This document shows, in pieces, positions 46,451 to 49,384 of a DNA stretch of 64,000 bases. The DNA lies in contig NZ_AP025516.1 of NCBI RefSeq assembly GCF_023169885.1, positions 3,017,501 through 3,081,500 on the forward strand, given 5' to 3'. The notes beneath the pieces were generated by a model that had not been told where the DNA came from, did no database searches, and was given only the letters and a program-made list of their open reading frames with translations. The position numbers and the translations under genes are program-made. The DNA is from Desulfofustis limnaeus. GTDB taxonomy: Bacteria > Desulfobacterota > Desulfobulbia > Desulfobulbales > Desulfocapsaceae. Position 1 is the stretch's first letter; the number at the start of each line of letters is the position of its first letter.

Positions 46451-46867
46451 TTATTCCTCTTCCTTTTTCTGCACATAGCGCAGCAGGAAGTAGCCGACAC
46501 AAAGCGCCAGCACCAGGGCGGCGATGCCGAGCATCGTGCCATAATCATCCGGACCGACGTCGAGAATGATCACCTTGCGGCAAATGGCGATGATCGCCAC
46601 GGTCATGACAATTTTGGTATGATCGACCGCCTCGTGGACATAGGTCTTGACGATAGTCTCCAGAAGCTCGATACCGATGACCACCAGCATGAACAACCCG
46701 AAAATCTCGAGAAGCTCGTCTATTTCCAGCAGGAACATGGGTGGTGAGACAATATCCTTGATCAGCACCCACAACAGCTCGAGGGCGGCAAGAAAGAGAA
46801 CGACGGTCATCATTACAACCAGTGAGAGAATGAGAATTCGCTCGAATTTTTTGATCAGCGGGATCAT
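46451..46867 (-). CDS. psiE: PsiE-like phosphate-starvation-inducible membrane protein
   Basis: 138 residues, four hydrophobic helices: ILSLVVMMTVVLFLAALELLWVL, FGLFMLVVIGIELLETIVKTYV, VMTVAIIAICRKVIIL, and LGIAALVLALCVGYFLL. VHEAVDHTKIVM and ELLETI are typical of PsiE. The role is unknown; in E. coli its gene responds to phosphate starvation. The C-terminus is charged (QKKEEE). The stop codon abuts that of the glycosyltransferase (tail to tail), and AGGA precedes the ATG. Confidence 0.85.
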   Translation of the reverse strand: MIPLIKKFERILILSLVVMMTVVLFLAALELLWVLIKDIVSPPMFLLEIDELLEIFGLFMLVVIGIELLETIVKTYVHEAVDHTKIVMTVAIIAICRKVIILDVGPDDYGTMLGIAALVLALCVGYFLLRYVQKKEEE

Positions 46868-47012: not shown

Positions 47013-47756
47013 TCATTGCGGACGAATGGCGACAAACAAAGCACCCCCGGTAGATGCGGACGTCTGTACCGGCGTCTCGTGCACCATATCCACCTGGTGA
47101 AAACCCGCTTCGCGCAGCAACCGGCATTGATCCCCGACCGAGATCGCCCCACCGATTCAGTGCGCCCACGATTTCACATCGGCAAACGGGCTGGGCCTCG
47201 CCCCCTGCCGCAGGACAATATCGGCAAACTGCAAGCGGCCGCCCGGTCTGAGCACTCGATAAACCTCGTGAAACAACGAGCGTTTATCCGAGGAAAGGTT
47301 GAAAACGCCGTTGGCGATGACCAGATCGAAAAAACCGTCTTCGTAGGGCAGGAACTCGTCGTCAAGACAGACCACCGCCGCCGTTGTCGTTCCGACCGCC
47401 CCAATATTCCGTCGGGCCTGCGTCAGCATCTCCGGAGAAATATCAACACCTCGCACCCGACCATGCGGGCCGGCCTGACGTGCGGCGACAATCAGATCAA
47501 AGCCGCTACCACAGCCAACGTCGAGCAGCGTCGCTCCAGGAGCTACCGGGCCGACAGAAAACGGGTTGCCAACCCCGCAGAAACTACACAACACCTGCTC
47601 CGGCAGGGAATTCACGACGTAGCTATCGTATCCCAGCAACAGGGCGCCCTGCCTCCCGGTGGGATAACGAAACAAGCCGGCGGCTCCCTGGGCCACTGAT
47701 CGATAACGCTGCCGCACGGCGTCTCGAATCAGGGTCCGTTGTTCCGGGGTCATCAT
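47013..47756 (-). CDS. ArsM-like SAM methyltransferase with probable selenocysteine at an in-frame UGA
   Basis: 247 residues if the TGA at 47157-47159 is read as selenocysteine; otherwise a 199-residue protein. From the ATG pair at 47756: SFCGVGNPFSVGPV is a signature of arsenite-methyltransferase-like proteins, then AdoMet loop LLDVGCGSGFDLIVAA, GVDISPEML and EVYRVLRPGGRLQFADIVL. After the UGA the same frame continues IGGAISVGDQ, CRLLREAGFHQVDMV and TSASTGGALFVAIRPQ to TGA, precisely the expected C-terminal fold; homologues carry Cys-Val/Ile-Gly-Gly-Ala where this has UGA-Ile-Gly-Gly-Ala. A SECIS-like hairpin follows the UGA. Substrate (arsenite or other) is unproven. Start has only a weak ribosome site. 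Confidence 0.75.
47129..47145 (-). promoter_or_regulatory. candidate bacterial SECIS stem-loop
   Basis: On the mRNA, bases 12-28 after the UGA read GAUCUC-GGUCG-GGGAUC: a six-pair stem (one G-U) with loop GGUCG, and an outer, weaker pairing of CGGUG with UGCCG. As I recall it, the E. coli fdhF SECIS has GGUC at the same distance (bases 19-22). SelB should bind such a loop. Confidence 0.6.
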
Positions 47757-48307
47757 CGCACCGGCACCAATCGGTAGAGAATCAGCGGGAGGGCACGGAT
47801 CAACCTGGTCACCGCCAGGCACACGTGTGGACCGTCAACCTCCGGACAATCGAGCTTGGCGATACGGCACTGACCGTCTCCTTCAAGTGGTTGGGCACGA
47901 CCGGGACGAGATCAGTCTCGCCACATCATGGTTAACTGTACCAGGAAACCAGCATAAACGGCAATAACCAGCACCATACCGACACCAAGACGACAGCCTA
48001 CACCGTTCCCCAGATCAAGACCGATCCCTCCTTTACGGTGGTCGGTGAGCCGAAGGCCAAGGCGGAAATCGTCATGGTGTTGCCGCCGGGCGCCGACCAG
48101 TTGACCAAACAACTCATGTTGTCGTGGTGCCTGAAAAGCCTACGTACTCCCTGGTAACGCCATCCAGAACGATCCAAGTCCCCTTTCTAATAAGTTGCGG
48201 CAAATACGGTCTTGAGCTAGAGTGCATCTTCGTTCCTCCAGCGGTCCGCGGCGGTCCTGCTGCGCTAACCGGTAGCTCTATCACCATCGACAGCCAAACG
48301 TATCGCC
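47757..48307. other. 551-bp region with possible decayed coding sequence
   Basis: No intact gene. On the plus strand 47944-48121 one frame reads TDTKTTAYTVPQIKTDPSF, then VVGEPKAKAEIVMVLPPGADQL, with protein-like composition and codon use, but it has an upstream stop (47932), no start or ribosome site, and ends after LRTPW. It may be a remnant of a lost gene. The remainder up to the pldA start shows nothing I can name, and no ribosome site is clear before pldA. Confidence 0.3.
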
Positions 48308-49384
48308 ATGTCTAGCCGGATTTTTTCTTTTCACCTGGTTGCTGTGCTGCTGTGGTGTTCCTCCCCTGTCAATGGCCGCGAAATCGCCCCAATCGAACCG
48401 GACGTGAACCAATGCCATGGTCTGGCCGATCCTGTCGAGCGGCTGGCGTGCTACGATCATATCAGCGGCCGCCAGGAAAAACCCGCCACCGCAGTGGGCA
48501 CGATAGATCGGTTGAACCTTCCGGACGCTGACGAGGCAACCGTCCAGGCCGATCAGGCAGCCGTCGCCCCGGAACACGAGGAGAAAAAAACCGTCTCGCT
48601 CATCGATGGCGTGTGGGCTTTCGACCCCAGCAGCAATCGAGCCATGATCACGACCCACCAGCGTAACTATGCGCTGCTGGCCCGCTATTCCACCGACGTG
48701 AACGAGACCCCCTACTCGGCCTTGTTCGACGCCTACGGTGAGTCCTCCGGCACTGATCCCCTGGAAGCATCTTTTCAGATCAGCTTCAAGACCCGCCTGT
48801 GGGCCACCGAAAGCCGCCGTCTCGGCGTCTGGCTGGCCTATACCCAGGAGAGCCATTGGCAGGTCTACAATGACGACAATTCACGCCCATTTCGAGAGAC
48901 CAACTACCAGCCGGAATTGTTTCTCAGTTACCGTCCCGGGCTGAGTTGGGCCGGTTTTTCCTGGAACCTGCTGAACCTCGGCTACGTGCACCAGTCAAAC
49001 GGACAATCGGAACTCATTTCCCGCAGCTGGGACCGGCTGTTCGCCGAGTTCGGGGTGGAAAAGGACAATTTCGGGCTGTTTCTCAAGCTTTGGACCCATT
49101 TGCCGGAAGTCGACGAGGACGAAAACCCCGACATTACCGACTATTATGGATACGGTGACCTGACCCTGCTGTATCGCTGGGGCGGTCATGGCCTGTCTCT
49201 CAAATTCGGCGGCAATCCGCGGACCGGCAAGGGGTCGGCCGAATTTTCCTGGGTCACCCCGCCGATCATCGGGCCGCTCCGTGGTTATATCCAGCTGTTC
49301 AGCGGCTACGGTGAGTCGATGATCGATTACAACTGGTACCAGAACACCGTCGGTATCGGCGTCGCGCTCAACGACCTCTATTGA
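48308..49384 (+). CDS. pldA: outer-membrane phospholipase A
   Basis: 358 residues. A signal peptide (about 1-23) precedes an N-terminal extension with CHGLADPVERLACYDHISG, resembling small periplasmic modules on secreted lipases, and a charged linker. The OMPLA barrel runs from about residue 100 to the end. The catalytic region reads YVHQSNGQSELISRSWDRLF: His and Ser of the HxSNG motif are present, while the third residue (Asn in E. coli, SWNR) is Asp. It hydrolyses phospholipids that reach the outer leaflet after membrane damage. It stands alone, with a repeat element downstream. Confidence 0.88.
   Translation: MSSRIFSFHLVAVLLWCSSPVNGREIAPIEPDVNQCHGLADPVERLACYDHISGRQEKPATAVGTIDRLNLPDADEATVQADQAAVAPEHEEKKTVSLIDGVWAFDPSSNRAMITTHQRNYALLARYSTDVNETPYSALFDAYGESSGTDPLEASFQISFKTRLWATESRRLGVWLAYTQESHWQVYNDDNSRPFRETNYQPELFLSYRPGLSWAGFSWNLLNLGYVHQSNGQSELISRSWDRLFAEFGVEKDNFGLFLKLWTHLPEVDEDENPDITDYYGYGDLTLLYRWGGHGLSLKFGGNPRTGKGSAEFSWVTPPIIGPLRGYIQLFSGYGESMIDYNWYQNTVGIGVALNDLY

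Follow-up and report, generated by a model that had tools for sequence, protein, structure and literature searches.

The minus-strand gene at positions 47013–47870 of the window, a 64,000-nucleotide stretch of the Desulfofustis limnaeus genome, probably encodes, judging from the sequence, a double selenoprotein with selenocysteine (Sec) at codons 12 and 238. We consider it likely that this double selenoprotein belongs to an ArsM-like group of SAM methyltransferases in which the substrate site is altered; the selenol of its N-terminal arm would act at this site.

The earlier note, which had proposed a new ArsM-like selenoprotein at 47013–47756, read the frame correctly: the minus-strand frame from 47756 is open through the TGA at 47157–47159 (residue 200 in this shorter reading, Sec238 of the full protein) and continues for 47 codons (IGGAISVGDQ...AIRPQ) until the TGA at 47013–47015, supplying the missing C-terminal part of the ArsM-like domain. 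The start was placed too far in, however, and an upstream extension to 47870 with a second, N-terminal Sec was missed. The gene very probably starts at the GTG at 47870, with the second UGA (47835–47837) inside it. A third Sec at 47013–47015 was rejected, as most of the 30 fetched relatives stop nearby with TAA or TAG and there is no conservation beyond. In the plain listing of open reading frames the gene end is placed at 47157, the truncation by automatic annotation that had been foreseen, and plain ORF calling in fact trims the protein at both ends. The neighbours in the window, a PsiE match (46451–46867, minus strand) and a phospholipase A1 match (48308–49384, plus strand), give no hint of a common pathway.

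Table 1. Features of the ArsM-like gene, in window coordinates; residues 60, 62, 150 and 200 are numbered from 47756.
Feature	Position	Strand	Basis
Whole gene, ArsM-like SAM methyltransferase, 285 residues, Sec12 and Sec238	47013–47870	minus	frame reading, relatives
AAGGAG, resembling a ribosome-binding site, 7 nt 5' of the start codon	47878–47883	minus	read in the sequence
GTG start codon, 11 codons 5' of the arm UGA	47868–47870	minus	ATG at a like place in 47/49 arm genes, median 13 codons
N-terminal arm, 38 residues; residues 1–28 with pLDDT <50	47757–47870	minus	frame and AlphaFold2 model
First in-frame UGA, Sec12, context SGG-U-RSTRVPGGDQ	47835–47837	minus	frame reading, relatives
Arm SECIS hairpin, CCUGG/CCAGG, GGU in the loop	47804–47819	minus	hairpin tests
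Cys60 (Cys98 of the full protein), invariant, at the place of CmArsM Tyr70	47577–47579	minus	alignment
Val62, at the place of CmArsM Cys72	47571–47573	minus	alignment
Gly150, at the place of CmArsM Cys174	47307–47309	minus	alignment
Second in-frame UGA, Sec200 (Sec238 of the full protein), at the place of CmArsM Cys224	47157–47159	minus	frame, relatives, alignment
Core SECIS hairpin, loop GGUCG	47129–47145	minus	hairpin and covariation
UGA taken as the true stop	47013–47015	minus	most of 30 fetched relatives end nearby with TAA/TAG

Pfam assigns the protein to the methyltransferases, with a match to PF13649. The best NCBIfam models are NF041537, NF047649 and NF041536, followed by PRK11873 (ArsM); all score below their cut-offs, the first three by a wide margin, and all 81 aligned proteins match these four models at E ≤ 1e-20. 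The NCBIfam matches of the window protein begin at residues 39–46 of 285 and leave out the arm. An AlphaFold2 model (mean pLDDT 89, falling below 50 in residues 1–28) had its best fold matches among ArsM structures (4fr0, Z 25.1, 1.9 Å over 204 residues; 6cx6 tied at 24.8), the best row other than ArsM reaching 21.3. The fold is thus like that of CmArsM, for which the available text of PMC3877260 describes Cys72, Cys174 and Cys224 as binding arsenic and all three as needed for activity on arsenite, the C174A and C224A variants being inactive. In the window protein, Cys72 is replaced by Val62, Cys174 by Gly150 and Cys224 by Sec200, while Tyr70, which precedes Gly-Cys72, is replaced by Cys60. 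According to the available text of PMC3790734, main-chain atoms of CmArsM Tyr70 and Cys174 contact the methyl group of SAM. Across the 81-protein alignment Cys60, Val62, Gly150 and Sec200 never vary, though hits were selected for the first two by the search pattern FCGVGNP; among the fetched relatives from the same order, L061 has Ala in place of Gly150. The protein is therefore related to ArsM but lacks its defining site, the set of three arsenic-binding cysteines having been replaced. The relationship to ArsM drawn in the earlier note holds for fold and domain, and its placement of Sec at a conserved Cys (the ArsM Cys224 equivalent) agrees with the alignment to CmArsM and to the genome's own Cys-containing ArsM; the loss of two of the three arsenic-binding cysteines had escaped it.

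That the enzyme might nevertheless be a canonical arsenite methyltransferase, with Sec merely in place of Cys224, is possible but rather unlikely. The nearest folds are ArsM structures, the available part of a 2026 review counts an arsenite methyltransferase with a UxxG motif among the selenoproteins and one relative comes from Anaerobacillus arseniciselenatis, all of which would suit this reading; against them stand the occurrence of Val and Gly at the Cys72 and Cys174 places in 80/80 named loci (the best 80 of 106, Val being partly selected by the pattern, with the Ala of L061 in the order set) and a score of 166.5 bits where the PRK11873 cut-off is 263. The inactivity of CmArsM C174A also argues against it, and so does the presence in the genome of a separate ArsM (G000:C1:4017998-4018672; L027 1408–2199, minus strand) with all three Cys motifs, LGCGNP, SNCVINL and CGCVTGA. 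The Sec form is accordingly not the sole ArsM-type enzyme of this genome. With two of the three arsenic-binding cysteines missing, the sequence argues against plain arsenite methylation: the altered site does not offer the canonical three-thiolate mechanism and canonical arsenite methylation is doubtful, with arsenite itself kept as one substrate candidate.

No conserved operon that would name the substrate was found in 80 loci (the best 80 of 106, with flanks of at most 4 kb, many of them cut by contig ends), the commonest neighbour cluster occurring in 7 of them, and PADLOC returned general methyltransferase matches only. Within the same best 80 of 106, a membrane protein gene lies directly downstream in 7 loci, the scanned example (L120, 4735–5418) being a VTT domain protein, and a P-type ATPase gene lies divergently upstream in 5, all of the arm form; the scanned ATPase (L080, 1395–3671, minus strand) carries a heavy-metal-associated domain. 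Bearers with strain names include Desulfopila aestuarii, Desulforhopalus singaporensis and Desulfosediminicola flagellatus.

The upstream frame runs through the second UGA in all 28 fetched order relatives with upstream sequence, as judged by eye; L043, cut by a contig end, is not among the 28. In relatives the arm usually has the context GG-U-x-P-x4-GG or close to it, with the start codon typically 13 codons 5' of the UGA. A count of upstream UGAs within 70 codons gave 62, the window included, of which 9 were dropped by a motif rule and 4 by hand (L091, L145, L153 and L154), leaving 49 arm genes; 47 of the 49 start with ATG before the arm UGA, and 37 have a Shine–Dalgarno-like sequence by a loose four-letter rule. 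In the window, AAGGAG is followed after 7 nt by the GTG at 47870 and then by SGG-UGA-RSTRVPGGDQ, which has neither the Cys nor the UxP motif that are usual in arms and shares its U-x6-GG spacing with many relatives. The window's own arm may be degenerate.

The arm UGA is followed by a hairpin, often with the loop GGUC. In 25 sequences, picked by eye from the 49 because they share one register (the other 24 are uncounted here), 87.3% of the cells are paired and 26 double-change cells are seen vs 10.8 in shuffles, a value reached in 0/500. Compared singly with synonymous recodings, all 49 gave a mean z of 1.25, with p < 0.1 in 47% of them. For the window sequence alone the arm hairpin is not significant (p 0.255), RNAalifold found no common structure in all 49 arm sequences, and a minimum-energy test on the 62 sequences before the cull was weak and unspecific, with a mean z of –0.45 after the UGA vs –0.57 in the next stretch. 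In our reading, the occurrence of the hairpin in two registers explains the absence of a consensus structure. The conserved GG-x-Q past the arm Sec overlaps the hairpin and probably acts as a signal in the RNA, not in the protein.

These data bear on the reading that only Sec238 is used, translation beginning at an internal start (GTG 47822 or ATG 47756, for instance) and the arm's UGA and hairpin being chance or a leftover in this species. This seems improbable to us: AAGGAG lies 7 nt before GTG 47870, itself 11 codons before the UGA, and the U-x6-GG spacing is common to many relatives; moreover, the arm is kept in 28/28 order relatives with upstream sequence and its hairpin covaries, even though the window's arm has neither the Cys nor the UxP of the common motif, its own hairpin and the arm energy test are as unconvincing as given above, and 19/80 named loci (best 80 of 106) have no arm.

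The named loci (best 80 of 106, a set overlapping the 28 order relatives) comprise 48 with the arm, 19 without, 5 with a short Sec tail at the C terminus (four of these being U-x-P-K), 5 with an AhpD-type C-terminal part and 3 that are cut; the C-terminal Sec part of L136, L138, L144, L146 and L147 is read as the AhpD form. In a tree, the 49 arm rows fall within a single 51-row branch (94/76, unstarred, the bootstrap not having settled), of which the other two are one cut by a contig edge and one without an arm (L130), and the C-tail and AhpD forms lie together in another branch (100/97). A single origin of the arm was rejected, as at least two to three changes are needed on the tree. The C-terminal Sec tails of L135, L143, L150 and L152, and less so of L145 (GGAUAPK and the like), resemble the N-terminal arm peptides (GGUPPK), as though, going by the peptide sequences, a single Sec peptide had been joined now to the N terminus, now to the C terminus of the protein.

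The core UGA is more uniformly conserved. In a search of the order that covered 257 genomes, that of the window among them, each of the 39 matches with E ≤ 1e-50 contains exactly one in-frame TGA, which aligns within W-x-x-U-[IV]-[GA]-G in all 30 fetched order matches; weaker matches mostly lack an internal stop and are other methyltransferases or canonical ArsM. Residue 200 is likewise TGA in 80/80 named loci; a pattern search of named genomes had given 106 relatives, of which these are the best 80, and they overlap the order set of 39. One of the two patterns used in that search spells residue 200 as Cys and the other does not contain this residue, and they should not be biased toward TGA. 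The UGA is conserved across several phyla among the close relatives examined. The stem-loop described in the earlier note, 12–28 bases past the UGA with the loop GGUCG, is present as GAUCUC-GGUCG-GGGAUC. Over 81 sequences, 88.5% of the stem cells are paired, with 29 double-change cells vs 8.0 in shuffles (0/500 as high), and of five stretches compared with synonymous recodings only the one just past the core UGA folds better (mean z –1.36, others –0.19 to +0.15). Because the hairpin of the window sequence alone is not significant (p about 0.27), the evidence for the core SECIS is at the level of the family. The gene thus combines a UGA conserved in homologues, where CmArsM and the genome's own ArsM have Cys, with a SECIS element just past it, as expected of a bacterial selenoprotein. 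Homologues ending at this UGA would have spoken against the earlier note's claim, and the close relatives examined do not end there: conserved residues run on past it to the C terminus. A pseudogene, a sequencing error or an ordinary gene end at 47157, where the plain ORF listing stops, is hardly credible given these downstream residues, the UGA kept across several phyla in the close relatives examined and the covarying SECIS.

A check of the genome for the Sec machinery, which the earlier note had advised, was positive for selB, selC and selD: tRNA-Sec (selC) is present (72.5 bits), selB scores over its cut-off (364.7 bits), and two selD genes over the cut-off (G000:C1:281600-282523 and 929270-930196) each have a UGA at the usual active-site place (CGUAAK, AGUASK). 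selA was not found in the genome, and the stretch in which it is expected reads N; its usual neighbour gene is present (48% identity), the sequence beyond it being N, and neither selA nor its neighbours were found within 14 kb of either contig end. As the expected stretch reads N, we reject the missing selA as an argument against Sec use. A weak PF03841 match (19.4 bits) was rejected as SelA; its open reading frame presumably encodes a cystathionine gamma-synthase-like enzyme. A search of 58 genomes of relatives, including the window's own, gave a selA match in 51, over the cut-off in 49, a genome of the same genus among them, and none in G127, which carries the protein and selB. Of the other genomes with the protein, 34/38 have selB over the cut-off; one of the 4 misses is 95% complete. 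In six selA regions of relatives (L071–L076), 16S rRNA begins about 600 bases from selA in L075, selA is preceded by 23S and 5S rRNA and an N block in L072, and in the other four selA lies no more than about 0.5 kb from a contig end. A 16S search of the genome found nothing, the same search being positive in only 9/14 control genomes. Should selA commonly sit next to an rRNA operon in this family, it may drop out of draft assemblies, and its absence there could mislead surveys of Sec use.

Selenium in ArsM-like enzymes is already known. The available part of the 2026 review lists a Sec-arsenite methyltransferase (UxxG) and three fused ArsM-like selenoprotein families, and the 2008 GOS survey, as far as its available text goes, lists Sec-ArsM. 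The earlier note's 'new selenoprotein' thus stands as a selenoprotein, on the conserved UGA, the covarying SECIS and selB, selC and selD, but not as new, since Sec-ArsM, NF041536, NF041537 and NF047649 had been catalogued. As far as their available descriptions go, NF041537 (ArsM/AhpD selenoprotein) and NF041536 (ArsM/DUF2284 selenoprotein) share the ArsM-like domain and carry a second Sec in an added module, which is a C-terminal domain there and a short N-terminal arm in the window protein. The window protein scores 266.8 bits against NF041537 (ArsM_AhpD_UU; cut-off 510), ending after the methyltransferase domain without a C-terminal AhpD, and 239.6 bits against NF041536 (ArsM_DUF2284_UU; cut-off 575), where the profile is matched up to 250 of 459. 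NF047649 (methyltransferase/UXPK-star double selenoprotein) likewise combines this domain with two Sec and has a short Sec peptide resembling the arm (CAPGGAUAPK in L135 vs arms of the CFLGAGGUPPK type), but at the C terminus, and in the tree the two forms are placed apart; against this model (MTase_UXPK_star) the window protein scores 242 bits (cut-off 460) and ends in AIRPQ with no C-terminal U-x-P-K-stop. The Sec-arsenite methyltransferase of PRK11873/NF008823 (WP_011987699.1), in its available description, is likewise a SAM methyltransferase with Sec at the UxxG place, but is filed under canonical ArsM, below whose cut-off the window protein falls. CmArsM (4fr0 and other structures) shares the fold and the SAM motif with the window protein, but CmArsM and the genome's own ArsM have three arsenic-binding cysteines and no Sec. 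MduS, as described in the review table, has a methyltransferase domain (PF13649, matched by the window protein too) and two Sec, with the motif CxxU rather than UxxG. The literature searched, which did not extend to Haft and Tolstoy 2025 (MduS), contains no description of an N-terminal Sec arm; the arm form could still prove identical to MduS. Within that literature, the N-terminal Sec arm, which lies outside every NCBIfam match of the window protein, looks new, as does the absence of two of the three cysteines that bind arsenic in ArsM, combined with an invariant Cys beside the methyl donor.

For the double selenoprotein we propose the following mechanism. SelB would insert Sec at codons 12 and 238; a conserved, covarying RNA signal, taken as a dedicated SECIS hairpin, follows each of the two UGAs. 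The globular part, with its CmArsM-like fold and motifs, is predicted to bind SAM. At the substrate site, the three cysteines would give way to an invariant Cys next to the methyl group of SAM and to a selenolate where CmArsM has Cys224, and Cys60 and Sec200 may hold a selenolate-loving substrate next to SAM. The flexible arm, with its low pLDDT, could bring a second selenol to the site, as the missing third ligand or as a resetting reductant. Most likely the enzyme methylates a selenolate-binding species of a soft metal(loid) or chalcogen.

The second Sec module recurs in three positions, which supports a shared task for it. We find the case evenly balanced for a widespread class in which the three-Cys arsenic site is swapped for a Cys/Sec pair and a portable second selenol, carried on an N-terminal arm, on a UxPK tail at the C terminus or on a fused domain of the AhpD type; this would be one movable function with at least three attachments, the arm selenol completing or resetting the metal(loid) site, and the substrate would probably not be plain arsenite. 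The family unites a selenol in a methyltransferase active site with a short disordered peptide whose clearest feature is its Sec. Should the arm selenol work at the active site, the family would offer a testable model of how a second selenol aids the methylation of metal(loid)s or chalcogens.
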